DNA of 64,000 nt from Sphingomonas xanthus (GTDB lineage Bacteria > Pseudomonadota > Alphaproteobacteria > Sphingomonadales > Sphingomonadaceae): NCBI RefSeq assembly GCF_007998985.1, contig NZ_CP041659.1, forward strand, positions 1 to 64,000. The letters run 5' to 3'. Made by a program: the position numbers and the translations under genes. The notes below the pieces were generated by a model. That model saw only the letters and a program-made list of their open reading frames with translations. It was not told the DNA's origin and ran no database searches. This document shows, in pieces, positions 13,530 through 29,626 of this stretch. Positions within the stretch are counted from its first letter, which is position 1, and every line of letters starts with the position of its first letter.

Positions 13530-14615
13530 ATGACACAGAACCTGCTCAGCCATATCCGCCATCTGCTAGCGCTGGCTTGCCTCCTCATCGCGGCGCCATC
13601 GTTCGCGAGTGCAACGCAAAGCTGGAAGGTGGCGCAGGCGACAGGTCAGGTCCAAGTCCTGAGACAAGGCCTTCAGCCTGCGTCATTGACGGTCAATGCA
13701 ACGCTCAAGTCCGGGGAAACCTTGCTTACCGGTCGAGATGGCCGGGCTATGCTGACCAAGGGTGAGGACTACATCGTGGTTTCGCCGGGCAGCCGCCTGG
13801 TCGTTCCCAACGAGCCCGAAGCCAACGGCTTCACTCGGCTCATCCAGATGTTGGGAACGTCGATTTACAAGGTGAAGACCTCCGGCCAGCCCCGCTTCAA
13901 AGTCGACACTCCAATGCTCGCGGCAGTGGTGAAGGGAACCACCTTCTCGATAGTCGTCGACGAAAAGCGCAACGCGGTCCAGGTTACCGAAGGTGTTGTC
14001 GAGGTAAGCAGCCTGGACGGCAAAAGTGTTCGCCGGGTCGAGGGCGGCAAGATTGTCGTTATCGACGCTGACCGGCCAACTGAAATTTTTGAAGTTTCCG
14101 ACCTAAGCGCAACGGCTTCCAGCCCGGACTCGATCAAGTTGGACACTCAAATCCAGTCGCCAACCGCAGATGTTTTGAAGCTCACCGATGGGCTGGTCAA
14201 AGAGGCCTCGGCTATTGTGAGCAGCATTGGGACGCCGAGTGATTTAGTAGCAAGCGTCGCCACCTTTGGAGGCCTGGCAGGGGCTCCGCTGGCGATTGTC
14301 GCTCCAGTGGTTGCCAATTTGCCTGCACTTCCGACGGACGGCGTTTTGCCGTCTGTCCCGGCAGTGCCGTCGGTGCCCGCCTTGCCTTCCGTAGAAATCC
14401 CTTCGGTCCCGATCGTTCCTTCTGTGCCGTCGGTGCCGTCTGTCCCGCAGCTGCCTGCTGCTCCCGCCATCCCTTCGGTCCCGAGCGTGCCGTCCGTGCC
14501 ATCCGTTCCGACGGTGCCTTCCGTGCCGACTGTGCCATCTGTCCCGAGCGTGCCCTCGGTGCCTAGCGTGCCGTCAGTACCGCTGCCACCACCGCCGCCC
14601 ATCCTGGGTGGCTAA
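13530..14615 (+). CDS. FecR-domain periplasmic protein with proline-rich repeat tail
   Basis: 361 residues. Signal peptide about 1-27 (ends FASA). A FecR domain (about 30-190) has the features WKVAQATGQVQVLR, LKSGETLLTGRDGRAML, FKVDTPMLAAVVKGTTF and VTEGVVEV. The last 100 residues are a low-complexity run of Ser-Val-Pro units (with Thr/Ala/Leu variants) ending in PLPPPPPILGG, which could span the peptidoglycan. FecR domains of this sort occur next to CHASE2 signalling proteins, as here: the EAL gene starts 15 bases later. Probably a periplasmic sensor or scaffold feeding the CHASE2 domain; this is an inference from neighbourhood. Confidence 0.8.
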   Translation: MTQNLLSHIRHLLALACLLIAAPSFASATQSWKVAQATGQVQVLRQGLQPASLTVNATLKSGETLLTGRDGRAMLTKGEDYIVVSPGSRLVVPNEPEANGFTRLIQMLGTSIYKVKTSGQPRFKVDTPMLAAVVKGTTFSIVVDEKRNAVQVTEGVVEVSSLDGKSVRRVEGGKIVVIDADRPTEIFEVSDLSATASSPDSIKLDTQIQSPTADVLKLTDGLVKEASAIVSSIGTPSDLVASVATFGGLAGAPLAIVAPVVANLPALPTDGVLPSVPAVPSVPALPSVEIPSVPIVPSVPSVPSVPQLPAAPAIPSVPSVPSVPSVPTVPSVPTVPSVPSVPSVPSVPSVPLPPPPPILGG

Positions 14616-14630
14616 GGGCCGGAAGGCGGC

Positions 14631-16946
14631 ATGATCCGAACACTCTCAAAGTTGGGGAAAAGCCAACGCTTCTTAGCTCCGGTCGCAATCGCGGCCGGAG
14701 CGCTTTTATTGTGGTTCGCATCCTTGCTGGCGCCGTTGGAAGAAACACTCTCCGATACGCGGGCCATGATCGATAGCCGTCCACCAACCGGCGAGATCGT
14801 TGTTGTCGAGATCGATGCAAAGAGCCTGAGTGAGTTTCAACAGTGGCCATTGCCACGGCGGCATTATGCTCGGCTCGTCGACCGGCTGTCCAAGGTTGGT
14901 GCCCGCGTTGTGGCCTTCGATGTCGATTTCAGCGCAAATTCGGGGGCTGATGACGAGGTCTTTGCCAAAGCGATTGCTCGCGCCGGCAATGTCGTGCTGC
15001 CGATTTTCGATCAGCCTGCCTCAAGCGGCGCGAACGCTGAATATCTGACGAGCCGCCCCATCGCTGAGCTTGGATCTGCCTGGGTCGCTTCTGTACTCAT
15101 TAACCCGGCCCACGACGGAACGGTGCGGAGCTATCCTGCCGCGACCTTCATCAATCGTTCCGTTCAACCGTCGTTGGCGACAATCGTGGCGGAACGCTCA
15201 GGATTGAAGGATCAAAGCTTTCATCCCGACTGGTCCATCGAGCTCGCTTCTATCCCGAGATATTCTCTCGTCGATGTCATGGAAGGGCGCGTCGATCCGG
15301 CCCGCTTCCGGGGCAAGCGGGTCATCGTCGGCGGTACCGCTATTGAGCTAGGGGATCGCTATTCGATCCCGCGACACGGCATCGTTCCCGGCGTCTACAT
15401 TCACGCAGTTGCCGCCGAGTCCTTGCTTTCAGATCGGGCGATCGTGGCCAGTGGCGACTTTATCACCATCTTGGGAACGCTGGTAATTGCGCTGCTCCTC
15501 GCCCCGGGTGCGCGTCGTGGACGTCGCGTTTGGCTGATCAAGTGGGCAGGGGCGCTGGTTGTCATACTGTCAGCTCCGGTCATTCTTGAACATTTTTGGC
15601 CTTATTCACTCGCGACTGCGCCCTGGATCACGACCCTGCTGATGGGCGCCGCGGTCTGGACCTTTTACGAGCATCGCGAGCAATTGCGGCAACGCTCGCG
15701 GACGGACCTGGAAAGCCATCTCCCGAACAGGGCAGCGCTTGAAGAGACTTTGTCCCAGATCGAGGGTTCGCGAACGCTGATCGTGGCGAAGATCGAGCGC
15801 TTCGGGACGTTGCGGGACAGCACCGGCCTCCAGGTGGTGAATGAAGCAGTGGTGGAGACAGCGCGCAGGATCGCCGAGTTCTCCAATGCACAAATCTTTC
15901 GGATTTCGCCGGACATGCTGGCATGGGTCGACGGGGAGGAATTGGAGACGCTCGAAGACCGGCTGCTGGAGCTCGACCTAGTCTTTCGCAAGGCGGTAGA
16001 AACTAGTGACGGAATCGTCGATGTCGGGTTGGCCTATGGCTTCGACCATTGCCTGGACGAGGCGATTGTCGCGCAGATAGAACGGGCGATTTCCGCCGTC
16101 GGTTCAGCCCGGGACGAAGGAAAGAAATTCTCGGCCTATCTTGGCCCTCGGCCGGTGCTTCGCCGCCAGGTCTCACTTGCCACTGATTTGCGGGAAGCTA
16201 TCCGCGACGACAGGATCGAACTGGCCTATCAGCCGAAGTTCTCGCTGCGATCGAACGCAATAGAGAGTTCGGAGGCTCTTGTACGATGGACCGGCCTCGA
16301 CGGGGCCCGGATATCGCCAGATTCATTCATCCCGCTCGCCGAAGACATGGGGATCATCACCGAGATCACCAGTTTCGTTGTCGAGAGGGCATTGTCGGAT
16401 TTGAAGGCCTGGGAAGCACATGGCGTGCACATGGCGACGGCTTTGAACGTTTCGGCGTGCGATCTTGCTCGCCCGGATTTCGCTGATTCTATCGAGCAGG
16501 TTATCCAAGCTGCAGGCATCGACCCGTCAAGAATTACGCTCGAGGTTACCGAAGGCGGACTAATTAGGTCGCCTCAGTTGGCAGTTGCGACCCTCGGGCG
16601 CCTGCGTCAATTCGGCGTGAAATTATCCATCGATGACTATGGCACGGGACGCTCGACCTTGTCCTACCTGAGCCAGTTGCCCGTCCATGAACTGAAGATC
16701 GACCGAAGCTTTGTGTCCACGATTGCGACTGACTCGCCGTCAGCGATCCTGGTCAAATCCACAATTTCGATGGCTCATGAACTCGGATTGTCGGTGGTTG
16801 CAGAAGGTGTCGAAGATAGTGCGACGCTTAGCCTTTTGCGGGAGTGGTCTTGCGACACTGTGCAAGGGTATCTGATCGGCAAGCCGGGGACGGCTGCGGA
16901 GCTGTTAGCCAAGGCAATGGCGATCGAGGAACTTCGCGTAGCCTGA
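14631..16946 (+). CDS. CHASE2 - degenerate GGDEF - EAL protein, cyclic-di-GMP phosphodiesterase
   Basis: 771 residues; GGAAGG lies just before the ATG. An N-terminal helix, a periplasmic CHASE2 sensor (about 35-280) and three membrane helices (about 283-350) are followed by a GGDEF-like domain (about 355-500) and an EAL domain (about 520-765). The GGDEF active-site loop is lost, with no recognisable GG(D/E)EF. The EAL domain keeps its catalytic set: EALVRW, NVSA, LEVTEG, SIDDYGTG, LKIDRSF, VAEGVE and VQGYLIG, so hydrolysis of cyclic-di-GMP is expected. It lies behind the FecR gene and before a tandem PilZ gene, making a sensor-enzyme-receptor line. The signal sensed is unknown. Confidence 0.9.
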   Translation: MIRTLSKLGKSQRFLAPVAIAAGALLLWFASLLAPLEETLSDTRAMIDSRPPTGEIVVVEIDAKSLSEFQQWPLPRRHYARLVDRLSKVGARVVAFDVDFSANSGADDEVFAKAIARAGNVVLPIFDQPASSGANAEYLTSRPIAELGSAWVASVLINPAHDGTVRSYPAATFINRSVQPSLATIVAERSGLKDQSFHPDWSIELASIPRYSLVDVMEGRVDPARFRGKRVIVGGTAIELGDRYSIPRHGIVPGVYIHAVAAESLLSDRAIVASGDFITILGTLVIALLLAPGARRGRRVWLIKWAGALVVILSAPVILEHFWPYSLATAPWITTLLMGAAVWTFYEHREQLRQRSRTDLESHLPNRAALEETLSQIEGSRTLIVAKIERFGTLRDSTGLQVVNEAVVETARRIAEFSNAQIFRISPDMLAWVDGEELETLEDRLLELDLVFRKAVETSDGIVDVGLAYGFDHCLDEAIVAQIERAISAVGSARDEGKKFSAYLGPRPVLRRQVSLATDLREAIRDDRIELAYQPKFSLRSNAIESSEALVRWTGLDGARISPDSFIPLAEDMGIITEITSFVVERALSDLKAWEAHGVHMATALNVSACDLARPDFADSIEQVIQAAGIDPSRITLEVTEGGLIRSPQLAVATLGRLRQFGVKLSIDDYGTGRSTLSYLSQLPVHELKIDRSFVSTIATDSPSAILVKSTISMAHELGLSVVAEGVEDSATLSLLREWSCDTVQGYLIGKPGTAAELLAKAMAIEELRVA

Positions 16947-17164
16947 CTGTCCGGTTGCGCGGCCCAACCACTCTGCCGGTTTACGTCGCAACTCTGGACT
17001 GGCTGCATTCCCAATCGCCCGCTGGTCGCCCCGTGAAACTATTTGTTCACCATGTTTCGAAACTTGCCATTTAGCCATTCATGATAGTTTTTACAGGTGA
17101 CTAACCATGCGATCCCCTCGTTAATTCTCGCTACCGGCGACGTCCGGACGGGCGGGGTTGTCGC

Positions 17165-17776
17165 ATGATGCAGAACGCAAGCCCAGCTGAGCGTCGAAGG
17201 CTTAACGCCCAAATGAACGCCGTAAACGATCGAGAACCGCGCCGTACAACCGAACTCACGGGGTTCGCAGTTCTCGAGAGCGGCGCGACCATCGAGATCA
17301 CCGTTCTCGACTTGTCATACGACGGCTGCAAGATCGTGACCCCAGCGGCGCTGTTGCCCGGATTGAAGCTCAAGCTGTCTATTCTCGGCGTACATGGCGC
17401 GCTGGATGCCGCAGTGCGGTGGTCCAGAAACGGCTTTGCCGGACTGAGGTTTAATCCTGATGATGAGCCCGAAGCTGGTCCAGTCCAGACCCCGCGGGAG
17501 TTCGAGCGGGTAAAGCTCGATGCAACGATCGCACTGCGCCGGCCAGGACGCCAAGTTTATGCGGTCCGCCTGTTCGATCTGGCGCCAAGTGGCTGCAAGG
17601 TGGAATTCGTAGAGCGACCCAAGGAGGGCGAGACGCTTTGGGTAAAATTTGACTCCTTGGAGGCCATCGAAGCGACGGTTCGCTGGGTTGATGGCTTTTA
17701 TGGCGGCGTGCAGTTTACCCGACCAATCTACTCCGCGGTATTCCAGATGCTCGTTACGCGGCTCACGAAAAGCTGA
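17165..17776 (+). CDS. tandem PilZ-domain protein
   Basis: 203 residues with two PilZ domains (about 22-100 and 110-195). First: REPRR, then VLDLSYDGCKI. Second: REFERVKL, then LFDLAPSGCKVEF. The first has the RxxxR and DxSxxG elements; the second keeps DxxxxG but its arginine motif is weaker, so it may bind less well or serve in dimer formation. No other domain or membrane segment. It follows the EAL phosphodiesterase by 218 bases with no gene between. Likely cytoplasmic reader of cyclic-di-GMP for the surface genes around it. Confidence 0.8.
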   Translation: MMQNASPAERRRLNAQMNAVNDREPRRTTELTGFAVLESGATIEITVLDLSYDGCKIVTPAALLPGLKLKLSILGVHGALDAAVRWSRNGFAGLRFNPDDEPEAGPVQTPREFERVKLDATIALRRPGRQVYAVRLFDLAPSGCKVEFVERPKEGETLWVKFDSLEAIEATVRWVDGFYGGVQFTRPIYSAVFQMLVTRLTKS

Positions 17777-17830
17777 ACGGGAACAATGCGCCTGTCGGGG
17801 CGTGCCTTTAAGGGCTTAAGGCAGGCGCAC

Positions 17831-17956
17831 ATGTCGTTTTCAAGAATGTCGTTGGACTGCCTGGTTCGCCAGTCATCCGAAGCCTTCGGCGTAACTCCCG
17901 AAATAGTTTCAAAGCAAAATGTGATGCGGGGCAAGTCCCGCATCGAATGCCCTTAA
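17831..17956 (+). CDS. candidate 41-residue ORF resembling the start of a DnaA-type DNA-binding domain
   Basis: ATG 17831 to TAA 17954-17956; an AAGGCAGG element lies about 8 bases upstream. The piece SSEAFGVTPEIVSKQNVMRG recalls the first helices of the DnaA domain IV fold (AFGVTPEDLLS-like), which occurs in small stand-alone sphingomonad proteins, but it ends before the recognition helix. It may be a truncated gene or chance. The upstream bases can pair (GCGCCTG at 17787 with CAGGCGC at about 17823), which would hide the ribosome site. Confidence 0.25.
   Translation: MSFSRMSLDCLVRQSSEAFGVTPEIVSKQNVMRGKSRIECP
17923..17944. promoter_or_regulatory. 8-bp stem inverted repeat before the LuxR gene
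   Basis: GATGCGGG-GCAAGT-CCCGCATC, perfect arms. No T-run follows on either strand, so it is more likely an operator or RNA structure than an intrinsic terminator. It lies about 220 bases before the LuxR-type gene. Confidence 0.4.
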
Positions 17957-18163
17957 TAGTGGCAGTTTTCCGGCGTTATTTTGACTGCGCCGATGATGCG
18001 AGGAATCGTTACGCTTCGTGCGTCTCGACAGCGGGCTTTTGCATTATTCCCGCCAAATTGAAAATTCAATTATCTTGGTATACAGGAAGTTAACGAAGTT
18101 TGCGTTCGCCCAGGCTTGGCCCTCTCCAGAGCCGCTTGGGGACGGGGAGGACCACCTTCTGCA

Positions 18164-18832
18164 ATGCCACGAGTCGAGAAATCGCATCGCGGAGGCGACA
18201 CAGGGTTCATGTTGTCGAGCCAGGCTGTCGATTCTGGCTCTGCGAATATCGTGCTTCCTCCACCATCACGAGAGCTGTTGAAGTCAGCACTAGCCGCTTG
18301 GGCGGCCCTCGATGACCGGGGGAGGATGATCGTTACCCGATCGGGTAGCCTAGTCGCCATTACGGACGCCGCACGCCAAATGTTGGAGGAGTCGAGAACG
18401 CTCGGAATCCGGGGCGATCGGCTGCACTCGGCAAGTTCGTCACGATTAAGAATTCTGGCAGAATTGCTCGAGGTTGATCCGGACCAGGTGCGAACGTGCC
18501 TGATCGATGACCGGGAAAATGGACATCTAGTGTGTCGTTCGGTGGCGCTACCCGACTGCGGTGACAAGGGCCTAGTGTTCGTGGAGATCGTTGCCGCCCA
18601 GCCGGATGTCAAAGCGCACTGGGTCGATTTTCGCGTTTCGCACGGCATGACAGATTGTGAAAACGAGGTCTTGGCAAGTCTGATGAGCGGGGAATGCCCC
18701 CTGGAGATCGCTGAGCACATGGGTAGCTCCGTCAATACGGTGCGTACTCACATCAGGCATATTTACGAGAAGGTCGGCGTAAGCAACGTGCAGGAACTGC
18801 ATCGTAAGCTCGCAGCCTATCGCTTAGGTTAG
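18164..18832 (+). CDS. LuxR-type helix-turn-helix regulator, likely controller of the amyloid operon
   Basis: 222 residues from ATG 18164, which has GGGGAGG about 13 bases upstream; starts at TTG 18116 or ATG 18209 are possible. The N-terminal 150 residues look PAS-like (MIVTRSGSLVAITDAARQML) and lack a phospho-acceptor receiver. The C-terminal about 65 residues are a LuxR/GerE domain: MTDCENEVLASLMSGECPLE, EIAEHMGSSVNTVRTHIRHI and YEKVGVSNVQELHRKL. It stands alone 242 bases before the Fap-like operon, with a 20-base palindrome in the gap. By position it resembles CsgD, the LuxR-family activator of curli, but that is an analogy. Confidence 0.75.
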   Translation: MPRVEKSHRGGDTGFMLSSQAVDSGSANIVLPPPSRELLKSALAAWAALDDRGRMIVTRSGSLVAITDAARQMLEESRTLGIRGDRLHSASSSRLRILAELLEVDPDQVRTCLIDDRENGHLVCRSVALPDCGDKGLVFVEIVAAQPDVKAHWVDFRVSHGMTDCENEVLASLMSGECPLEIAEHMGSSVNTVRTHIRHIYEKVGVSNVQELHRKLAAYRLG

Positions 18833-18984
18833 ACGGCTACATCAGCAGGCTCATTGAGCGGCTCGAAAACGATAATCTGCTCTCGTTCACCCGCACCCAG
18901 GCAAATCTTCAGCCCCGACAGAAACGGGCGCGTCCTTCTGAGGCGGCCCCACCGTTTCCTCAGCAAAACACAATCCAGATTATA

Positions 18985-19004
18985 AATCATCAATGTTGAT
19001 GATT
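18985..19004. promoter_or_regulatory. 20-bp palindrome upstream of the amyloid operon
   Basis: AATCATCAATGTTGATGATT: perfect 9-base arms around TG. It lies 70 bases before the first operon gene in an AT-rich patch (TTATAAAT just left of it). A two-fold site of this length suits a LuxR-type dimer. The rest of the 18833-19074 gap holds a minus-strand 53-codon frame (18829-18990) without a ribosome site, judged doubtful. Confidence 0.55.
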
Positions 19005-19074
19005 ACACATGCCATGCCAGGGGGTTAACTTTCGATAGTACCGCAATTTTTAGCGATGGGGGCGCTCTCGAGCC

Positions 19075-19530
19075 ATGTCCAGTTTCCTCGGCACCGCGCC
19101 GCTGGCCTCGCTCGTTTTCGTAGCATCCAGGGCTCTTGCCGCTCCGACAGGAGAGCCTCCTCCGGGTTCGCTGATTTATTTGCGAGAAGTCCCTGCGCGG
19201 CCGGCCCACCTTCCGGGTCATCCAGCCGTTCCGCACTCGGTGGAGCTAGGGGCGAACGGCGTGGTCGGTCAATCGATCAGCGGTTCAATCAGAAGACTTA
19301 CAGACTCTGAAGCTGACACCATCGTTGGCGCTTTCTCACGCTCTTCGCTGATCAATCCGGAAGCATCCATTGCGACGCCCGTCCTGGGCGGCTGGGGTGA
19401 CCGGCAAGTGGCGACCGCTCTGTCCGGCCAACCCGCAGGCGGTCCAATTGCCAACGCTATGGGCCAGATGACCAGCTCGATTGCTAGCGCCACTTCGACC
19501 TTGTCGAACGCGCTTGGAGACCGGCCATGA
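19075..19530 (+). CDS. small secreted protein, first gene of the Fap-like operon
   Basis: 151 residues with a signal-peptide-like start (about 1-22, ends SRALA) and a proline-rich mature N-terminus. The rest is Ser/Ala/Gly-rich with QVATALSGQPAGGPIANAMG near the end. No family recognised, and no GVNxAAG amyloid repeat. It overlaps the next gene by 4 bases (ATGA). By place it corresponds to FapA, the first and least understood Fap protein in Pseudomonas, proposed to act in the periplasm as a chaperone or regulator of fibre make-up. Equivalence is positional only. Confidence 0.6.
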   Translation: MSSFLGTAPLASLVFVASRALAAPTGEPPPGSLIYLREVPARPAHLPGHPAVPHSVELGANGVVGQSISGSIRRLTDSEADTIVGAFSRSSLINPEASIATPVLGGWGDRQVATALSGQPAGGPIANAMGQMTSSIASATSTLSNALGDRP

Positions 19531-20117
19531 TGCGTGCGTCGCGAACCTTCGCCTGGTCGGCGATGCTGGTCCTGTTGCCTGCGGTAGCGCTGGCCCAGGC
19601 AAGCGAGGAGGTCGTCCTGACTTCGACCACCGCGAACAGCCAGGGCCGCATCGCTGTCAATGTCGCAAGCGGTAACGGCAACCAGCAGGCCTCCAGCGCA
19701 GTGATCGCGGTAGGAACGACGGGCATCGGGTCCAATGGCGTCGACCAGCATAGCAGTAGTCGCAACAGCCTCACCGGGCCCACCCACGCTGAAATCCAGG
19801 CCGGTGCGCTGTCCGGTCTGCAGGGCATGATCAGCATCAACGTCGCGGCTGGAAATGACAATCAAGAGGCGAACCTTGCCGTTGTCGCGCTGGCGCTTGG
19901 GGGTTCCGCACTCACCAACACCATGCTCTCACAGACGCGGGCCGAAGCGCCTCAAAAGGTGGGGCAAGATGCCCCCAGCCGCGGCGCAGATAGTGCCATG
20001 CTTTCGCCGGATGCGCTGACCGGCAGCCACGGCCTCATTCAGATCAACCTGGTTGCGGGGGAACGCAATTCCTCCGCCAACACCTTCGCCCTCAACGTGT
20101 CGGGCGGGGGAAATTAA
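19527..20117 (+). CDS. FapB-like minor amyloid subunit
   Basis: 196 residues; signal peptide about 1-23 (ends VALAQ). Three imperfect repeats are visible: GRIAVNVASGNGNQQASS (residues 40-57), GMISINVAAGNDNQEANLAV (100-119) and GLIQINLVAGERNSSAN (169-185), separated by linkers of 40-50 residues. The core xIxVNxAxGxxNxQxN has the regular Asn/Gln/Gly pattern of Fap-type functional amyloids (FapB and FapC). It lies immediately before a longer protein with the same repeats, as fapB precedes fapC. Probably the nucleator or minor fibre subunit. No cysteines are seen in the mature part. Confidence 0.7.
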   Translation: MMRASRTFAWSAMLVLLPAVALAQASEEVVLTSTTANSQGRIAVNVASGNGNQQASSAVIAVGTTGIGSNGVDQHSSSRNSLTGPTHAEIQAGALSGLQGMISINVAAGNDNQEANLAVVALALGGSALTNTMLSQTRAEAPQKVGQDAPSRGADSAMLSPDALTGSHGLIQINLVAGERNSSANTFALNVSGGGN

Positions 20118-20144
20118 CACGGAGGAGTAGGAAAGGAACTAAGG

Positions 20145-20993
20145 ATGAAAAGGTTACTTCTTGCGACCGTTGCTGCATCGAGCCTGGCCATTGCCAGTCC
20201 GGCTGTAGCCCAGTCCGATGGACGCACCGACACGATTGATGCCGATGTTGAATATAGCAACGACATCGACGTCGAGATCGAGATCGTCTCGGACTTCGAC
20301 AAATATGTTAATCTGGTGGGCACGGTGGACCTTCGCGGCCTCATCCGAGCCGACTCAGCTGCCGTCGCTATCAATGACGTCAAGCAATGGCAGCAGGACC
20401 AGATCATCGAAGACAATGAAGTCAACGTGGTCGAAACGTTCGATGTCGCGGGCAGCGGCAATCTCGGCGTGAACCTTGCTGCTGGCATCTACAATCAGCA
20501 GATGAATTCCGCCGCGCTGGCAATCTCCGATGCCAACTCGGGCGAGGACGACAACCGCGCCGGTGGCTGGGCTGAAGCTGCGACGATCTCGCTGCAACAT
20601 CTGACCGACACTGAATATCAGACGCTCTATCAGTTGGATGATGATCGCCTGGTTGTTCAAGGCGGGACTGTCACTGGCGCCGGCAATATCGGTGTCAACG
20701 CGACGGCTGGAGCCTTCAACCAGCAGTCCAACCTGATGACGATGGCGGTGGCCACGGACTCCGTCCTTGCGGAGGCAAACGCCGCGTTGGTCCAGTTGAG
20801 CCAAGGCAACACCAGCTATGACATCACTGGTCCGCATCGTGTTGGATCTCTGACGTTGACCGGTGCCTCCGGCAACATCGGCGTGAACATGTCAGCTGGC
20901 GTTGGCAACCAGCAGGTCAACTCCCTCACCATGGCTGTCGGCAGCGGCAACGGTGGTGGTGGCGGCGGCGGTGGAGGCGGCGACGACATCTAG
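20145..20993 (+). CDS. FapC-like major amyloid subunit
   Basis: 282 residues; signal peptide about 1-23 (ends AVAQS). Three strong repeats: GNLGVNLAAGIYNQQMNSAA (from residue 105), GNIGVNATAGAFNQQSNLMT (from 180) and GNIGVNMSAGVGNQQVNSLT (from 243), each followed by alternating apolar residues. The linkers are acidic. The C-terminus is a ten-glycine run then DDI. The CxxC seen near the C-terminus of Pseudomonas FapC is absent. GGAGG and GGAAAGG elements lie before the ATG, fitting high expression, and a strong hairpin follows the stop. Likely the bulk fibre protein, exported through the FapF-like barrel. Recognition is by repeat pattern and gene order. Confidence 0.75.
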   Translation: MKRLLLATVAASSLAIASPAVAQSDGRTDTIDADVEYSNDIDVEIEIVSDFDKYVNLVGTVDLRGLIRADSAAVAINDVKQWQQDQIIEDNEVNVVETFDVAGSGNLGVNLAAGIYNQQMNSAALAISDANSGEDDNRAGGWAEAATISLQHLTDTEYQTLYQLDDDRLVVQGGTVTGAGNIGVNATAGAFNQQSNLMTMAVATDSVLAEANAALVQLSQGNTSYDITGPHRVGSLTLTGASGNIGVNMSAGVGNQQVNSLTMAVGSGNGGGGGGGGGGDDI

Positions 20994-21015
20994 TCTTGCC
21001 ACTTCGCACCGGAAG

Positions 21016-21035
21016 GGGGGCTCAACTGAGCCCCC
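21016..21035 (+). terminator. intrinsic terminator/attenuator inside the amyloid operon
   Basis: GGGGGCTCA-AC-TGAGCCCCC followed by TTT, a 9-bp perfect stem 23 bases after the major-subunit stop. The T-run is short, so partial termination is likely; this would give more fibre-subunit mRNA than export-machinery mRNA. It could also protect the upstream mRNA from 3' decay. Confidence 0.7.
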
Positions 21036-21086
21036 TTTCACCGCCGAAAGACTTGAGGCCACGATAGCGCCGTTGAGGATCTCCCA

Positions 21087-21812
21087 GTGACTTCTGCTTG
21101 CCTTCGTACCCACTTCGTGACGCTCACCGTCTGCGCGCTGGCGATGGCGGGCTGCGCGACGAGCAGTCCATCGCCGCCGGCGATCTGGATGGCGCAGGTG
21201 TCGCAAGGAGCACCCGTGGTCGACGTCGGCGTGAAAAGTTGGAAGGCGCTAAAGTTCACCAACCTCGTCAGGCAACAGACGGACTTCAGTTGCGGCGCGG
21301 CGGCCATGGCAACGGTTTTCAACTTTGGCTTTGGCCATAAGACCACCGAGCGCCAAATCCTCGTCAACATGCTGAAGGTCGCGGATCCTGAGGTGGTACG
21401 GGAAAAGGGTTTCTCGCTTCTCGACATGAAAAACTACGCGAAGCAGATCGGCTATGCGGCCGAGGGCTACGAAGTAGACTACGAGGCACTGACCAATCTC
21501 AAGGTCCCCGGCATCGCGCTAATCAACCTCAACGGGTACAAACATTTCGTGGTCATCAGGAAAGCTGACGCGCACTATGTGCACGTCGGGGACCCCGCGC
21601 TCGGCAATCGAACCATGAAGCGCGAAGACTTTCTCGCTGCCTGGAACAAGGTAGTGTTTGTCATGGTCGGAGAAGGCCTCCTGGCCGACAGCGCTCTCCT
21701 CAATCCAAAGCCGCCGCTATCCGCCCGAAGACTGTTTGAGAGTCGCTCTCCGGTCTTCAATGCCGACCTCGCTGATTTCGGCTTTGGCCCATCATTTAAC
21801 TTCGGTTTGTAG
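21087..21812 (+). CDS. FapD-like C39-family cysteine peptidase, lipoprotein
   Basis: 241 residues from GTG 21087, with GAGG 9 bases upstream. ALAMAGC (Cys 22) is a lipobox, so it is probably a lipoprotein. The peptidase C39 signature is complete: QQTDFSCGAAAMATVF with Cys 69 and the oxyanion glutamine before it, YKHFVVI with His 153 and HVGDPALG with Asp 169. C39 peptidases cut after double-glycine leaders in bacteriocin exporters. FapD of Pseudomonas is a periplasmic protein of this family needed for fibre export. Place between the subunit genes and the barrel gene supports the FapD call. The natural substrate is unknown. Confidence 0.78.
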   Translation: MTSACLRTHFVTLTVCALAMAGCATSSPSPPAIWMAQVSQGAPVVDVGVKSWKALKFTNLVRQQTDFSCGAAAMATVFNFGFGHKTTERQILVNMLKVADPEVVREKGFSLLDMKNYAKQIGYAAEGYEVDYEALTNLKVPGIALINLNGYKHFVVIRKADAHYVHVGDPALGNRTMKREDFLAAWNKVVFVMVGEGLLADSALLNPKPPLSARRLFESRSPVFNADLADFGFGPSFNFGL

Positions 21813-21824
21813 AAAGCCAGGAAC

Positions 21825-22679
21825 ATGGCGCTTCATCCAAACATCCGCACAACCAACCACAGGTTGCAGCTGTCCCCCCGTGCAGTGTGGGCGTTGCTCT
21901 TGGGGTCTATGCTGACACCAATGAGCGTCGTCCACGCTGCACTCCCGGATACGGGCCTTCAACAGACGGCCACGCCACTTTCTGACGACAGATTGTCCGA
22001 AATCCGCGGGAAGTTCATCACCGCGGAATCCGTCTCATACTTCGGTGTGCAAATGGCGAGCAGCTGGCAGGGCGCAGATGGCATCACGACCAATGCAACG
22101 CTGCTCTTTGCCGTGGACTTCGCTGCCGGCGCAGGGTCGCAAGGCGTGCCAATCCTCATGATCAACTGGAGCCGGGATGGCGACCCGGCCATGGATCTTG
22201 ATGCATTCGCCTCTGCTGCCAGCGGGGGATACGTCGTCCTATCCGGAGGACAGGTGGTTGTCCCCACGAATTCCCTCAATGGTGTCAGCGGTGTCGTCCA
22301 ATCCAACGTGATTGCAGGAACTGACAACCAGGTCCGCAATGGCATGTCGATTGCCGTCGTCCCCAAGGATCAAATTCCGGGATTGCTGGCAGCGGGCCTC
22401 CAGCCTGCGAGCGGATCGACGACCGTGACCCTCGATGACGGATCAACAATCGATTTTTCCGTCGCCAACAATGGAGTGGGCCTGGCGCTGACCCGGAACG
22501 GGAATTCGGTCGCGCAGGGCGTTGACGGGACGCTTGGTCGAGCTGCCCAGAACATAGTTCTGAATAGCAATCTCAACCGCATCGAGAACAACATGACCAT
22601 GATGATCGGTGTCGACACGCTGCAGCAAATCGACACCATTCGGTTCCAGGAAGCACTTTGGTCGATCAAGGGGATCTGA
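21825..22679 (+). CDS. FapE-like secreted protein of the amyloid operon
   Basis: 284 residues; the signal peptide is long, with a hydrophobic core at about 20-38 and a likely cut near VVHA-ALP. The mature part contains two amyloid-like segments, GVVQSNVIAGTDNQVRNGMS and AQNIVLNSNLNRIENNMTMM, which share the xxxNxxAGxxNxxxN spacing with the subunits but less regularly. AGGA lies before the ATG. FapE in Pseudomonas is a minor fibre component between fapD and fapF; order and content agree. No catalytic motif. Confidence 0.6.
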   Translation: MALHPNIRTTNHRLQLSPRAVWALLLGSMLTPMSVVHAALPDTGLQQTATPLSDDRLSEIRGKFITAESVSYFGVQMASSWQGADGITTNATLLFAVDFAAGAGSQGVPILMINWSRDGDPAMDLDAFASAASGGYVVLSGGQVVVPTNSLNGVSGVVQSNVIAGTDNQVRNGMSIAVVPKDQIPGLLAAGLQPASGSTTVTLDDGSTIDFSVANNGVGLALTRNGNSVAQGVDGTLGRAAQNIVLNSNLNRIENNMTMMIGVDTLQQIDTIRFQEALWSIKGI

Positions 22680-22682
22680 AGG

Positions 22683-23315
22683 ATGGCGCACGATTACAAG
22701 GCAGGCAGGAAACCGCGGCAGTTTTATAAACGGGCTTGGAATGGGGTCTTGTTGGTCTCAGTCGTCGCCATGGCCAGTCAGGCGTCCGCGGGCACCAAGA
22801 ATGGTCGTTTCGCGATCGAAGGGATCGGCGGAGCTCCGTGCCGGCAGTTCGTAGCTGAGAGCAAGGCCAAATCCACCGTGTTCCACCGAATGGTTGGATA
22901 CACCGAAGGATATCTGACGGCCTCAAATGTCTACGAGCCCAATACCTTTGATCTGTCGCCCTGGCATGACACTGCCAGCCTGCTCATTGCCTTGGACCGG
23001 CATTGCCAGAAAAACCCGAATGATTTGCTGGCGACAAGCATCCAGAAAATCGCAGCTGCTCTTTACCCGACGAGACTGTCTTCGGAATCGCCGCGCATAA
23101 CCATAACAGATGGGAAGCAAAGCATGCGGGTCTATGTTGCCGTGTTGCAGCAGGCGCAGAACAAGTTGAAGGCACGTGGCCTGTACGGGGGACCCGCCGA
23201 TGGAAAGTATAGCCCTGAGGTAAAAGCGGCCTTGATGAAATATCAACAGTCGGCGAAACTCAACCCAACCGGATTGCCTGATCCGTTAACTCTGTGGGGA
23301 CTGTTCAAATCCTGA
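22683..23315 (+). CDS. peptidoglycan-binding-domain protein inserted in the Fap-like operon
   Basis: 210 residues. A membrane/signal segment (about 20-38, ends QASAG) is followed by an all-helical part with two cysteines (APCRQF and DRHCQK), resembling small periplasmic HdeA/Rap1a-like proteins, and a C-terminal peptidoglycan-binding type 1 fold: VLQQAQNKLKARGLYGG, then YSPEVKAALMKYQQ and GLPDPLTLWGLF. It starts 3 bases after the FapE-like stop. Pseudomonas fap operons (fapA-F) have no such member, so this may be a lineage-specific part that fixes the secretion apparatus to the cell wall. Inference from domain and place. Confidence 0.65.
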   Translation: MAHDYKAGRKPRQFYKRAWNGVLLVSVVAMASQASAGTKNGRFAIEGIGGAPCRQFVAESKAKSTVFHRMVGYTEGYLTASNVYEPNTFDLSPWHDTASLLIALDRHCQKNPNDLLATSIQKIAAALYPTRLSSESPRITITDGKQSMRVYVAVLQQAQNKLKARGLYGGPADGKYSPEVKAALMKYQQSAKLNPTGLPDPLTLWGLFKS

Positions 23316-23344
23316 CGGATTGGGACAAATCGAAGGGGGCGTAC

Positions 23345-24622
23345 ATGAGAATATCGACACTTCCAGCGTTTGTTTTCGCTGCCGCGGCTGGCGTAACCAG
23401 CCTTCCGGCCAGTGCGATAGCGGTCCAGACGGCCGACGAGTTCGCGGTGCTGCGCTCGGAAATAGAACAACTCAAGGCACGGGAAGCCGAAGCCTTGAGC
23501 AAGGTCGAGGCGCTGGAGCGACGGCTCAATGCCCTGGAGGCTTCCCGGATAAGCGATCTGCAAGCGGCCAGCATTATGGGGAGAGGCTTGCAAGGGACGC
23601 CTTCCTCAAATTCTTCCACCGAACCCGGCCTCGCAGCCAACACGGAAAGCGATGACAGAAAGTCGCCCGCGCCTACGGCTGCGGCAGAGGATGTTGCTCG
23701 ACAGCAGCACCGGAGCTTTTCCGATCGCTTCGCCGTGGAGATCGGAACGACCTACTCGCACTTTGATAGCGCGCGCATCAACCTCAACGGCTTTCTGGCA
23801 CTGGATGCGATCTTCCTGGGCAAGATCAGTATCGACCAACTCCGCGCCGATATCCTGACGTTCGATGCAACGGCCCGATACGGGCTCAACGACCGGCTGC
23901 AGTTCGACGTCAACGTTCCCTACCTTTATCGCCATTCGAACTTCCAATCAGGAGGGGCTGGCGGCGCCGCGACCTCATTGACCGAGGAGAATGTAACCGG
24001 CCACGGCCTGGGGGACATCAATTTTGGTGTCAGCTATCGCCTAATTCGCGAAACACCGAACCGGCCTGACATAGTTCTCAATGCGCGAGTAAAAGCACCT
24101 ACTGGGCGCCACCCTTATGGTGTGGAACTTGTCGAAGTTGAGGGGAGCGAAGGCAATCTGTTCGTTCCCGCGCGCCTGCCGACCGGGTCCGGCCTTTGGG
24201 GAGCATCCATCGGGATATCAGCTCTCAAGACAATCGATCCGCTCGTGGTTTTTGGAAGCGCGACTTTCTTCAAGCAATTTGCTCGGAGTTTCTCCGACGT
24301 AGACGAAGCGGAAGGGAAGCAGCCTGGCCGCGTGCGCCTCGGCGATGCATTTCAATGGGGCGCGGGGGTTGCCTACGCCCTTAATGATTATTCGAGCCTC
24401 TCGACGTCATTCACTCAGCGTTGGATACGCCGCTCAAAGGTCAGGCTGGACGGAGAGGACTACGAAACCATCGTAGGAAGCCAAGGAAACGTCGGCATCG
24501 TAAATCTCGGTGGGACTTTCTCGCTTAATCGCTTTGTCTCGCTCGTGGCGACGGTTGGCATTGGCGTGACTGAAGATGCTCCAGATCTTTCCCTGGGTCT
24601 AAGAGTCCCCATTCGTTTCTGA
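23345..24622 (+). CDS. FapF-like trimeric outer-membrane amyloid exporter
   Basis: 425 residues from ATG 23345, preceded by AAGGGGG. Signal peptide about 1-23. A heptad-like helix follows (about 30-68: FAVLRSEIEQLKAREAE, VEALERRLNALEAS), then a linker and a beta-barrel (about 125-425) ending in GLRVPIRF with a terminal phenylalanine. An N-terminal coiled coil, a plug region and a barrel that secretes fibre subunits is the known build of FapF. The barrel also resembles generic transporter/porin families, but the helix plus the operon makes FapF the best reading. It is the last gene; no plus-strand terminator was seen after it. Confidence 0.75.
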   Translation: MRISTLPAFVFAAAAGVTSLPASAIAVQTADEFAVLRSEIEQLKAREAEALSKVEALERRLNALEASRISDLQAASIMGRGLQGTPSSNSSTEPGLAANTESDDRKSPAPTAAAEDVARQQHRSFSDRFAVEIGTTYSHFDSARINLNGFLALDAIFLGKISIDQLRADILTFDATARYGLNDRLQFDVNVPYLYRHSNFQSGGAGGAATSLTEENVTGHGLGDINFGVSYRLIRETPNRPDIVLNARVKAPTGRHPYGVELVEVEGSEGNLFVPARLPTGSGLWGASIGISALKTIDPLVVFGSATFFKQFARSFSDVDEAEGKQPGRVRLGDAFQWGAGVAYALNDYSSLSTSFTQRWIRRSKVRLDGEDYETIVGSQGNVGIVNLGGTFSLNRFVSLVATVGIGVTEDAPDLSLGLRVPIRF

Positions 24623-24782
24623 CCCGGGTTCCAGCGCCATCGGTACTTCTCGTCGCGTGAGACGCTCAGGTCCATCACGGTTTGTGTTGCCATAGCCAAG
24701 ATCGTCAGCGCCGCAGCGCCCGCGGACCCATCTGGTCACATTGGTTCGCTAGGCAGCCAATCTACGTGTGCAAACAAACGAA

Positions 24783-24810
24783 AACGGCGGCTCCAAATGG
24801 AGCCGCCGTT
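24783..24810 (-). terminator. intrinsic terminator of the autotransporter gene
   Basis: 12-bp perfect stem AACGGCGGCTCC / GGAGCCGCCGTT with a 4-base loop. Read on the minus strand it is followed by TTTTCGTTTG, so it ends the autotransporter transcript, whose stop is at 24828. The 205-base gap has no other feature. Confidence 0.85.
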
Positions 24811-24827
24811 CCCGTACTGACCTAGAC

Positions 24828-27800
24828 TTAGCCCCGTTCCGGTTCCGGCGGCGGCGGCGGCGGCGGCGGGGGAGGAGGCGGAGGCGGACATGCATCCGTC
24901 GCCAGGATCACCGAGCCGTCAGGGCAGGTTTGGGTTGCCGGCGGAGGCGGCGGGGGCGGAGGCGGCGGCGGAGGAGGGGGAGCCGCTTCCGCAAGCCGGC
25001 CACCTAGACGCCAGCCAGCCCGAAGACCGAAGCCCTTCTTGTCGCCAAAGTCGCCCCAGGCAGCCAGGATCGGTCCGGGGCCGTTGTTACCCCCGAGGCC
25101 GCCCTCGATGCGGAACCAAGTTCCCTTGCCGCCTGCATCCACGTCGTAGAAGTTGGCACCATCATAGACGACAACGTCACGGCCGCTGTCGCTGAACTCG
25201 TGATACACCGTGGCGTCGAGGTACGGCGCAATGCCGCCACCGAACACCGCACGAGCACCAGCCCGACCGCGTGTCGATTTCAACCGTTGGATGTCATAGC
25301 TGAAGCCGAAGGCATCGATATCATCAACCTTGGTCCGAACATGGCTGACGCCGACATTCAGATCGAAGGTTGTCGCTCCGGGCGTACCAAAGCGATAGCC
25401 GACGGAGCCATCGATACCGGTTGCACGGATGTCAAAGTCGACGTCATCGAAGGCGCCGTCATCAAACTCCGCGTTATACCGATCGTGCTTGGCCAGGAAT
25501 TCGCCATGGAAACCGGTCTGACCGCCAAATTGGCCGTAGACGCCCACGTTCCATCCTTTGGCCCGCAGCCCGACACCAGTGGTGTCGTTGCCGTCAGCCC
25601 GCGCACGAGCAAAGCCGCCCGTCAGGCCAACGCGCCCACTGTCGAAGCCGTAATCAACGCCGAGCTGGATCCCAAGGCGCTTGGTTTCAAGGCGATTGTT
25701 CACCTCGAACGAAACGTCGTCGAGAACATACTCCGTGTTCTTGTCGCCGAACTTGTCGCGGCTCCAATAGACGTCGCCCCAGAAGCTCGCGCCGACCGTG
25801 GTCGCCGGCTTACGGGTTTCAGCGATCACCTCATCCGCGCTCTGGTACCAGAGCGAAGTGGCGAAAGCGGGGACGACAATCGGATCGAATGCAGATGCAT
25901 TCGGTGCCGAGATGAGGAAGAAGTCCCCTCCCTGCTGCGAGAGACTATAGTCGATCAAGGGGCTGGTGTTCCCGGTGACGGTTCCCAGCGTGAAGGCCCC
26001 AGCTGATGCGCTGGTTGCATCCACGACGAGAACGCCACCCAAGTTGATCAGGCCGGCCGCCTGCGACTCTGCATCGATCCTTGTCGATCCACTGGCTGCG
26101 CCGTTGATCACCAGGCGGTCCGCAGTGGTATCATTGAAGTCGACAAGCAGCGCTGCGTTCCCTGAACCAGCATAGCTGCTGTTGATCGTCAGGATATCGC
26201 CTACTGCGCCATCTTGCAGATCAATTGTTCCGCTGTTGGCGAAACTTGTCTGCCCCGTGATGGTCGTTGCGCCCTCATCGGCAATGATCGTGCCAGTGTT
26301 GGTGAAAACTGCAGCGGGAACGGTGAGCGTTCCGGCAGCAAGATCCATCGTGCCGCTGTTGCTAAGCGAGGTGAAGCCAGCAAGGCTCGCCGATCCACTG
26401 GTATCGATGAAACCCGAATTGGCGAACGCACCTGCGCCGGTGAGCGTAAAGGTGTTGAGATTGATCCGCCCGCTTTGGGTGAAGGTCTCAATGCCCGCCA
26501 AGGTCGCATTGCCGGTCAGGTTCATGATACCTGTGCCGGTGTTGGCCAAAGTATCCGTGCCCGCACCCATATCCAAGGTGCCAGCCAGGTTGAACGTACC
26601 GGTGTTGGTCAGAACGGTATTCCCGCCGTCCAACAGCAGCCCTGCCGCGGCATTAAGCGTTCCGGCATTGGTCATGGTCTCAAGACCAGTCAATGTCGTG
26701 CCCGCCAACACGTTGGCCGTGCCGCCCGAAGCAACAGTGACCGCGTCTGTTCCCAGCCCGAAGTCGATTGCGCCGCTGAGGTTGGTGGTCCCGCCGGCAC
26801 TGGTTGCCAGCGTGTCGTTGCCGGCGCCGAAGTCGGAACCGGTCTGGACGCTCAGCGTGCCCGCGTTGGTGACGGTGTCGTTGCCATCGGACAATTCGAG
26901 AATGCCGATCATCGTCGCGCCGGCATTGTTGTTGATGGTTGCGGTAGTCGTTCCGTCGGTCAGTACGGCAGTTTCACCGGTAAGACCGATGGTGCCGCTG
27001 TTGTTGATGGTTACCGTGGAACCGCCGGTCGCATAGACGCCGTAGTTGCCGGTGACCGAGCGGCCCGCAGAGACGTTGATGACCTTCGCGCCCGCGGTGT
27101 CGACTTCGATACCATCGTCGCTTCCGACGACATTGCCGCCGGCGACATTGACGGTGATCGCACCCGAGTCCGAGACGGCATGGACGCCGTCCGAGCTACC
27201 ACCGGAGATATTCCCGTTGACCGTGATCGTCTGGTTGCCGGTGGTCGTGAACGTTTCGATACCATTGCCGCCCGGAGCGGTAATGACGCCGCCACTGGTC
27301 ACCGAGAGCGGTCCACTGGTTGCCTCGGCATAAATGCCGTTGCCGCTGGTGGTGTTGATCGCGCCGGAATAATTGACGGTGACACCGCCTGTACCAGTGG
27401 TGCTGGCATCGATGCCATTGCCAGTCGAGAAGATCGCGCCGTTACCGTTAACCGTCAGCGCTGCAGCTGAACTGGCGTTGTTGATATCGGCCCGAATACC
27501 GATGTCGGTCAGACGGTCGGTTGCAGAACCAATCGCACCATTGTTGGTTACGGTGAGCGCGCCCAGGCCCGAATGGTCAGCGCTGATGCCAACATCGAGC
27601 GTATCTGGCGAACTAACGGCACTGCCGATCGCGGCATTGTTTGTGACCGTCAGCGAACCGAGGGTCGTCGCATCCGACTGCTGTGCAACGATGCCTACAT
27701 CGTCTGCACGAATTGTCGTTCCTGTAGCAGTGGTGACAAGCACGTTGCCCGCAGTGCCCGAATGGAATGCGCCAATGCCATATGATGCGCTGCCTGCGCC

Positions 27801-28313
27801 GCCGGCGGTGACATTGCCACCAACGTTAGCCGTCAGGTTTCCGGTGCCATCGTGATTCAATATGAGGCCGTCGGCAAAGCCGCCGCCGAGATTGGCGATA
27901 GAACCGGTGCCGCTGTAGGTGACATTCGTCGCCCCGGTTCCAGTGATATTGAGCGCGGCGATACCGCCGACAGTGGGCGTATTACCCGGGTTTACCTGGA
28001 TCGTGCCGTTATTCACGACGTCGAGGGAGCCAGTCCCCGCCAAGGTGTTCGTAAAGGCAAGGCCGTAGCCATCCACCACGGCGCCGGTTGAAACTGTTCC
28101 GGTGAAGTTCGAGGTCGACGTATCCACCTGGTATTCCCGGTCGCTGGCAGGCGTGCCGCCAGCGTTGGTGGTATTAGTCGTCGTGGTAGTTCCGCAGGTA
28201 ACAGTGGTCGCCGTTACTACGCACTGCGCTTGGGCTGGAGATGCTGCTAGCATCGTCATGCCGAAGCCCAAGGCCGCGGTGCCCAGAAGGCGGGTTCGAG
28301 TTGTTCGGATCAT
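24828..28313 (-). CDS. autotransporter adhesin-like protein with proline-rich tail after the barrel
   Basis: 1161 residues from ATG 28313 (AGGGGAG about 10 bases upstream); a start 37 codons earlier lacks a signal peptide. Signal peptide about 1-30 (ends AQAQ). The passenger (to about residue 800) is Thr/Gly/Asn-rich, with repeats of the kinds TNAGTLN and GNGI/GDNTV, typical of right-handed beta-helices. A barrel of the autotransporter type follows (about 820-1100: GASFWGDVYWSRDKFG to GFGLRAGWRLGG). Unusually the chain runs on for about 55 residues: a proline run, TCPDGSVILATDACP, a second proline run and EPERG. Classical autotransporters end at the barrel with phenylalanine. Upstream of the start lie 280 bases without a gene. 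Confidence 0.82.
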   Translation of the reverse strand: MIRTTRTRLLGTAALGFGMTMLAASPAQAQCVVTATTVTCGTTTTTNTTNAGGTPASDREYQVDTSTSNFTGTVSTGAVVDGYGLAFTNTLAGTGSLDVVNNGTIQVNPGNTPTVGGIAALNITGTGATNVTYSGTGSIANLGGGFADGLILNHDGTGNLTANVGGNVTAGGAGSASYGIGAFHSGTAGNVLVTTATGTTIRADDVGIVAQQSDATTLGSLTVTNNAAIGSAVSSPDTLDVGISADHSGLGALTVTNNGAIGSATDRLTDIGIRADINNASSAAALTVNGNGAIFSTGNGIDASTTGTGGVTVNYSGAINTTSGNGIYAEATSGPLSVTSGGVITAPGGNGIETFTTTGNQTITVNGNISGGSSDGVHAVSDSGAITVNVAGGNVVGSDDGIEVDTAGAKVINVSAGRSVTGNYGVYATGGSTVTINNSGTIGLTGETAVLTDGTTTATINNNAGATMIGILELSDGNDTVTNAGTLSVQTGSDFGAGNDTLATSAGGTTNLSGAIDFGLGTDAVTVASGGTANVLAGTTLTGLETMTNAGTLNAAAGLLLDGGNTVLTNTGTFNLAGTLDMGAGTDTLANTGTGIMNLTGNATLAGIETFTQSGRINLNTFTLTGAGAFANSGFIDTSGSASLAGFTSLSNSGTMDLAAGTLTVPAAVFTNTGTIIADEGATTITGQTSFANSGTIDLQDGAVGDILTINSSYAGSGNAALLVDFNDTTADRLVINGAASGSTRIDAESQAAGLINLGGVLVVDATSASAGAFTLGTVTGNTSPLIDYSLSQQGGDFFLISAPNASAFDPIVVPAFATSLWYQSADEVIAETRKPATTVGASFWGDVYWSRDKFGDKNTEYVLDDVSFEVNNRLETKRLGIQLGVDYGFDSGRVGLTGGFARARADGNDTTGVGLRAKGWNVGVYGQFGGQTGFHGEFLAKHDRYNAEFDDGAFDDVDFDIRATGIDGSVGYRFGTPGATTFDLNVGVSHVRTKVDDIDAFGFSYDIQRLKSTRGRAGARAVFGGGIAPYLDATVYHEFSDSGRDVVVYDGANFYDVDAGGKGTWFRIEGGLGGNNGPGPILAAWGDFGDKKGFGLRAGWRLGGRLAEAAPPPPPPPPPPPPPPATQTCPDGSVILATDACPPPPPPPPPPPPPPEPERG

Positions 28314-28593
28314 GCTTGGAAGCTCCCCTAATATTGCAACACTGAGCGCGTCGCACAGGTCAATTGGGAACGTCGGCCAGACTACACTGTTCCCGGCCGA
28401 GATTCTTTTTGCCGAGGGTGTCACTGTTCGGCAACACCTAGGTTTCCGTAGGGGAATTCAGGCAATCGACGAGGCGAATTCGTGCCGGGTTTGAGCTTCA
28501 GGCCGCCGTAAAGTGAGGTGCCGAGGGTCGCTCTCCGGCGCTCGGTTCCCGAATGCCTCGCTGTCCCGGGGAGCCCGAGGCGGCGCTGCGTGC

Positions 28594-29346: not shown

Positions 29347-29626
29347 AGCGAGGCTCTCTCATTGGCTAACGTAAACGGTGACCGCGGGTAGCGCTAAATC
29401 TGACTTGCTCCCCGGCGCAGCAGCCGCTGCTCATTAGGAACGCTAGGCAACACGCGCGAACCTCAGCGCAGGTTCCCAGTCGAGCCGAGCGTCACCATGT
29501 TTTCAAAGGCAGGCGAGAGATCGACGGATGCGATCGAGGGCAGGCGGCCATAACGACTGGAGCGAAGCCTTGGACCGCCAGTTTGTCAGATGCTTGCCGG
29601 CCGTGTTCACGCAGCGATCGTGAAAT

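Follow-up and report, generated by a model that had tools for sequence, protein, structure and literature searches.

Among secreted functional amyloids, curli (csgBAC/csgDEFG) combine a LuxR-family regulator gene (CsgD) with dedicated periplasmic helpers. Another system is Fap (functional amyloid in Pseudomonas), for which the published model involves Sec export, a periplasmic FapD, a trimeric FapF exporter, and nucleation of FapC by FapB (PMC6173800, PMC3684753). According to the available text of the same two papers, the Pseudomonas fap operon encodes no regulator; the roles of FapA and FapD are called less clear, the absence of fapA is given as the commonest variant, and the Perspective section asks how Fap is regulated (all in PMC6173800). 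For P. fluorescens, RpoN and LuxI/LuxR are discussed, with no linked fap regulator in the available text of PMC8202526. In 2013, Fap was regarded as limited to Beta-, Gamma-, and Deltaproteobacteria (PMC3792158), and in 2018, it was named in Erythrobacter, Porphyrobacter, and Novosphingobium (PMC6173800). Here, we analyze a fap locus in the window, a stretch of 64,000 nucleotides of Sphingomonas xanthus (contig NZ_CP041659.1), where an original prediction, made from the letters alone, had placed a Fap-type operon headed by a LuxR-type regulator gene. That prediction inferred an alphaproteobacterial version of Fap; with the three sphingomonad genera already named in PMC6173800, alphaproteobacterial Fap is known and not new.

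The fap operon and its identity

By sequence comparison, positions 19075–24622 of the window are a complete Fap operon, with FapA to FapF all present as open frames in the canonical order. Downstream of the LuxR-type gene, seven tightly spaced genes on the forward strand follow in the order A-B-C-D-E-X-F (Table 1). The prediction had fitted all seven into the fapA-F order, which holds for six of them; the sixth gene, X, is not a fap gene and is foreign to the fapA-F set. The NCBIfam profiles for FapB, FapC, FapD, FapE, and FapF match the genes in that order, so that the profile comparison proposed along with the prediction for the barrel and the repeat proteins yielded FapF, FapB, and FapC, and the FapE-like protein also bears out its description. 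Further support for a Fap operon in this alphaproteobacterial sphingomonad comes from structures: FapC matches the cryo-EM structure of FapC (PDB 9nqd, 3.6e-10), and FapF, foreseen as a coiled-coil-plus-barrel exporter, matches its NCBIfam model over residues 31–442 and, through its barrel, the FapF crystal structure (PDB 5o65, 1.5e-85). Pfam recognizes the GerE helix-turn-helix (HTH) and a C39 peptidase in this region, finds PG_binding_1 in the sixth gene, and assigns a generic barrel to the last one, which has an alternative start at GTG 23294.

Table 1 Features of the fap locus in the window
Feature	Position	Strand	Evidence or remark
Predicted one-component regulator, PAS-like N-domain and LuxR/GerE HTH	18116–18832	+	Pfam GerE 2.8e-9; model; position
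20-bp palindrome (9-bp arms, 2-bp spacer), candidate operator	18985–19004		luxR-fapA gap
fapA homologue	19075–19530	+	No Cys; N-terminus signal-peptide-like by eye
fapB, putative nucleator	19527–20117	+	NCBIfam FapB 1.2e-21; two exact Fap repeats; overlaps fapA
fapC, major fiber subunit	20145–20993	+	NCBIfam FapC 1.2e-25; three Fap repeats; Gly-rich C-terminus
12-pair hairpin, proposed attenuator or mRNA stabilizer	21012–21039	+	fapC-fapD gap
fapD, C39-type Cys protease, possible lipoprotein	21087–21812	+	NCBIfam FapD 8.4e-64; catalytic triad
fapE, minor subunit	21825–22679	+	NCBIfam FapE 1.3e-16; one Fap repeat
Gene X ("fapX," our own label)	22683–23315	+	Pfam PG_binding_1 1.3e-12; model; folds; locus distribution
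fapF, secretion barrel of the outer membrane, preceded by a helical (coiled-coil) region	23345–24622	+	NCBIfam FapF 5.7e-119

For comparison, we assembled 22 non-alphaproteobacterial fap loci: four named gammaproteobacterial ones (L016–L019) and 18 from a phylum search of 398 genomes, which gave 21 matches at E 1e-45, three of them alphaproteobacterial. Profiles built from alphaproteobacteria only match B, D, E, and F in all 22 of these loci and C in 21. The fapA product has no Pfam or NCBIfam match; the profile of its alphaproteobacterial copies matches 16 of the 22 loci (E from 1.6e-14 to 2.4e-5).

The minimal Fap repeat, published as G-x4-N-x3-G-x6-N (PMC3792158), occurs three times in FapC, twice exactly in FapB (in a third copy, Ser replaces the terminal Asn), and once in FapE. 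Among 2000 shuffles of each protein, none reached the count for FapC, one that for FapB, and 23 that for FapE; the repeats thus exceed chance. The prediction had spoken of "two or three" repeat proteins. In FapD, which had been described as a lipoprotein C39 peptidase with a full Cys-His-Asp set, the triad (C69, H153, and D169) is kept in all 20 aligned alphaproteobacterial copies, that of the window included, and the lipoprotein nature is possible, given that Cys 23 could belong to a lipobox.

FapC ends in a ten-glycine tail, and none of FapB, FapC, and FapE contains any Cys. The prediction took this tail and the missing C-terminal CxxC for marks of diverged subunits; both traits are real but represent common variation across Fap loci. 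Outside the alphaproteobacteria, a FapC was assigned in 17 of the 22 loci (the other five have none), and five of these 17 proteins end in CxxC; none of the 19 alphaproteobacterial ones does, nor does that of the window. The FapC of P. putida F1 also lacks it (PMC3684753), and its absence is no mark of divergence. Gly-rich FapC tails occur in the alphaproteobacterial and non-alphaproteobacterial sets alike. The idea that the ten-glycine tail is the C39 cleavage site was dropped, since the FapC of S. edaphi has no such tail.

An alternative interpretation is that the locus is no true Fap system but a diverged FapD/FapF-like export module, Fil-like or unnamed, of the sort that many alphaproteobacteria carry, with other substrates. 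Several observations weigh against a Fap assignment. All NCBIfam scores fall below the equivalog cut-offs of these narrowly calibrated models (score/cut-off in bits: FapB 77.2/190, FapC 90.8/195, FapD 214.9/330, FapE 60.5/250, and FapF 397.6/700), and therefore, we do not claim the narrow equivalog names FapB–FapF. Furthermore, D and F are hit by the FilB and FilC profiles as well (1.1e-31 for D and 6.2e-22 for F), and distant FapF-like proteins are encoded in 37 of 396 genomes of the order, with a C39 FapD-like neighbor in 14 of 14 such loci. However, the Fap profiles score far above the Fil profiles (397.6 vs 78.5 bits for F), the repeat-containing FapB, FapC, and FapE are all in place, and in the FapF tree (56 rows, with several long branches flagged by the tool), the 42 canonical Fap rows, including the window, are separated from the 14 distant FapF-like rows at 100/100. 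We consider the alternative highly improbable and put the probability of the Fap identity and general mechanism, excluding the roles of X, the regulator, and the hairpin, at about 0.87.

Distribution of fap loci

Within the FapF tree, the 19 Sphingomonadales rows, among them the window, form one starred clade (100/99), and L125, from an alphaproteobacterium of another order, pairs with a non-alphaproteobacterial row (89/83). FapF-like matches at E 1e-20 or better were detected in 56 of the 396 genomes of the order and form two groups with none between: 19 canonical ones, none weaker than E 2.1e-117, and 37 distant ones, none stronger than E 5.3e-40. A class-wide draw of 385 genomes gave 13 matches at 1e-20, four of them canonical by score: the window, two genomes from the same family, and G542. 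The last is the genome in which L125 lies, and it carries a distant FapF-like copy besides the canonical one. The nearest named locus is that of Sphingomonas edaphi (L015), and one genome of the same genus (G138) shows an identical layout. An earlier profile search found a canonical match in none of 36 congeners drawn (one had a distant match) and a later draw included two congeners with a canonical match; the carriage of fap is therefore patchy.

Gene X

The protein encoded by X consists of a signal peptide (by eye), a helical domain with a probable likeness to HdeA, YmgD, and Rap1a and with two conserved cysteines (C53 and C108), and a PG_binding_1 domain; the AlphaFold2 (AF2) model has a mean predicted local distance difference test (pLDDT) score of 91.7. 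The PG_binding_1 match is above the Pfam cut-off in the window copy and is found in 80 of 81 alignment members, and this C-terminal domain should hold the protein to peptidoglycan in the periplasm. The helical domain is probably disulfide-bonded. In sequence, the X family resembles Pfam HdeA weakly, and the window copy produced no match to HdeA/HdeB (PF06411, cut-off 22 bits) at E 1 or less; we therefore refer to a putative HdeA-like fold rather than to the HdeA family. A search of PDB sequences with the X profile returned 24 chains at E≤10, the best of which were peptidoglycan-binding domains, with no HdeA or YmgD among them.

Of the 19 canonical Sphingomonadales loci, 18 have X between fapE and fapF, as does L125; X is present at none of the 22 fap loci from other classes. 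Wherever a fap locus has X (19 loci), it adjoins fapF on the same strand, and in several, the fapF frame begins inside X. Across the 396 genomes, canonical fap and X co-occur in 18, with fap only in one, X only in 13, and neither in 364 (every X match kept; Fisher p 6e-22, kinship ignored). Four loci with X and without fap (L110–L113) have X beside other genes; in two of them, L112 and L113, it points away from genes for secreted-looking proteins of ~455 aa that are alike by eye. Location of the operon on a mobile element was rejected: a search of 72,556 plasmid records for X turned up nothing at E 1e-10.

What X does can be read in several ways. X could be a bystander that travels with the operon and binds peptidoglycan in the periplasm without taking part in amyloid export, as the 13 genomes and four loci with X outside of canonical fap would allow; its retention between fapE and fapF across the Sphingomonadales and in one further order, together with the fapF frames opening within X, makes this unlikely. 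X might instead be a structural tether that fixes the FapF trimer, via the periplasmic coiled coil, to peptidoglycan without any chaperone activity. The nearly universal PG_binding_1 match and the invariant adjacency to fapF speak for this reading, but it leaves the conserved two-cysteine helical domain unexplained, and we regard it as unlikely. A bolder reading, which we hold to be less likely than not, is that FapX serves alphaproteobacterial Fap as a seventh, dedicated biogenesis factor. It would be an HdeA-like chaperone, disulfide-bonded and tethered to peptidoglycan, that keeps subunits unfolded in the periplasm and hands them to FapF, as a functional counterpart of the curli factors CsgC/CsgE, with a PAS-type regulator taking the part of CsgD. 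Taken separately, a role of X in keeping unfolded FapB and FapC from aggregating is conceivable, if somewhat short of an even chance, and one in placing FapD and the coiled coil of FapF at the cell wall is somewhat less likely.

The hairpin downstream of fapC

A strong hairpin downstream of fapC, as in the window, was detected in 30 of 42 fap loci, whatever the class, by a strict stem rule (110 nt, with FapC defined as the repeat gene immediately upstream of fapD). The count comprises 12 of 20 alphaproteobacterial loci (among them the window) and 18 of the 22 from elsewhere; 20 rounds of shuffling averaged 0.8 and 0.7, respectively, and reached at most 2 and 3. Control positions after A, B, D, E, and X yielded 0–4 per set, exceeding their own shuffles for B in alphaproteobacteria (4/19) and E elsewhere (4/22); behind fapF, the expected site of a terminator, the rule found 2/20 and 9/22, respectively. 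In a folding test on the 70 nt past the stop codon, fapC gave z<-2 against dinucleotide shuffles in 14 of the 19 alphaproteobacterial loci and in 11 of 17 others (five more have no assigned FapC), compared to 3 of 140 for B, D, E, and X. The whole 93-nt fapC-fapD gap of the window has a z of only -1.84. The controls are partly coding sequence, and part of the contrast therefore reflects the wide non-coding gap after fapC. Loci L016 and L019, from Halopseudomonas and Pseudomonas, likewise have a hairpin after fapC. Whether it keeps subunit mRNA above the mRNA of the secretion genes we judge to be an even bet.

The linked regulator

The prediction of a LuxR-type gene ahead of the operon is confirmed by the GerE match. 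The start given for it, ATG 18164, is one among several possible, the frame being open already from TTG 18116. The AF2 model of the regulator (mean pLDDT 82.5) has VqmA and EL222 as its best full-length PDB matches; the modeled topology and the matches to these proteins and to PAS domains suggest that the N-domain is of the PAS type, although acyl-homoserine lactone receptors match too. GerE was matched in all 15 linked regulators and Pfam PAS in none of the 15 at E 0.1. Among the Sphingomonadales loci, 17 were testable, and 15 of these have a LuxR-type gene at this position, vs 0 of the 22 non-alphaproteobacterial loci; the linked gene is thus lineage-bound. The LuxR-like gene of L125, which was recruited by profile and is among the 16 LuxR training rows of the 22-locus survey, was left uncounted as a linked regulator, being larger, on the opposite strand, and ~3 kb from the operon. 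Identity with CsgD was rejected: the NCBIfam model PRK10100 gave 27.8 bits against a cut-off of 250, over the HTH part only.

The palindrome in the luxR-fapA gap was equaled in one of 500 mononucleotide shuffles of the gap, but a conserved operator was rejected: none of the 14 luxR-fapA gaps from other loci contains the half-site, and some carry palindromes of another kind. A sigma-70 promoter scan of 17780–24830 returned no sites against a shuffle mean of 2.3 and is uninformative, and riboswitch control was discarded, with no Rfam match at the gathering score in 14000–30000.

Related modules and neighboring genes

In alphaproteobacteria, 14 loci (L100–L109 and L126–L129) hold a second type of module, made of a FapF-like and a C39 FapD-like protein; its FapF rows are those on the far side of the 100/100 branch in the tree. 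Several of these loci encode a secreted-looking protein of 120–160 aa and a large Asn-rich protein, four show a weak FapE-like match, and in L101 and L105, three Fap-repeat proteins adjoin fapD. Aquificaceae metagenome genomes contain FapD/FapF-like pairs (L020 and L021), with F at ~28–32% identity in the best segment. In L132 (2537–12067), a single fapF is preceded by two consecutive B-C-D-E sets. A gene for a GGDEF-motif protein lies between fapE and fapF in L142 (8463–9389), outside the class, which suggests cyclic di-GMP control within that fap operon.

In the window, genes for a CHASE2-EAL protein and then a PilZ protein (14631–17776) lie directly upstream of the operon; a link to cyclic di-GMP was dismissed, with no GGDEF/EAL-type open reading frame >200 aa in the flanks of 19 alphaproteobacterial loci by a crude motif scan of short flanks. 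Downstream, a 1198-aa protein encoded on the reverse strand (24828–28424) resembles an autotransporter by eye; its tail is long and proline-rich, and Pfam gives no match at 0.001. A stem-loop with 13-bp arms (24783–24810) separates its gene from fapF.

Proposed mechanism

By analogy with Pseudomonas, all Fap proteins would be exported by Sec, FapD would process the subunits in the periplasm, FapF trimers would secrete FapB, FapC, and FapE, and FapB would nucleate FapC fibers that hold cells together in biofilm. For the roles of X, the regulator, and the hairpin, we infer from position, conservation, and fold the following additions: the PAS-like/LuxR-type regulator probably activates the operon upon a small ligand, redox, or light cue; FapX, tethered at peptidoglycan, may serve as a subunit chaperone or as a positioner of FapF and FapD; and the fapC-fapD hairpin probably keeps subunit mRNA in excess over that of the secretion genes. 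The sphingomonad X and linked regulator would offer a genetic handle on the solubility of subunits in the periplasm and on the switching of fap, and the hairpin a testable account of how one operon yields more subunit than secretion machinery.

Comparison with known systems

The locus is a known system with lineage-specific parts, X and the regulator, that are described nowhere in the searched literature. X, the linked regulator, and the hairpin are unmentioned in the available text of PMC6173800, PMC3792158, and PMC3684753 (the terms LuxR, peptidoglycan, HdeA, hairpin, and terminator are absent), in a search confined to the text of open-access papers. The Fap loci of Erythrobacter, Porphyrobacter, and Novosphingobium have the same gene order as the window; the available text of PMC6173800 on these three genera mentions neither X nor a regulator and does not name the genus of the window. 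The Fil putative pilus system (FilB and FilC) shares the C39 protein and the FapF-like barrel, with a much weaker match than Fap. Curli are built from unrelated proteins, and the regulator of the window matches the CsgD model over the HTH only. From the small periplasmic proteins HdeA/HdeB, YmgD, and Rap1a, X differs by its peptidoglycan-binding domain. The closest counterpart is fapABCDEF of Pseudomonas, which is alike in the six genes, their order, the repeat motif, the C39 triad, and the barrel with its N-terminal helical region, and from which the window differs by X between fapE and fapF, the PAS-like/LuxR-type gene in front, and a FapC that lacks CxxC.

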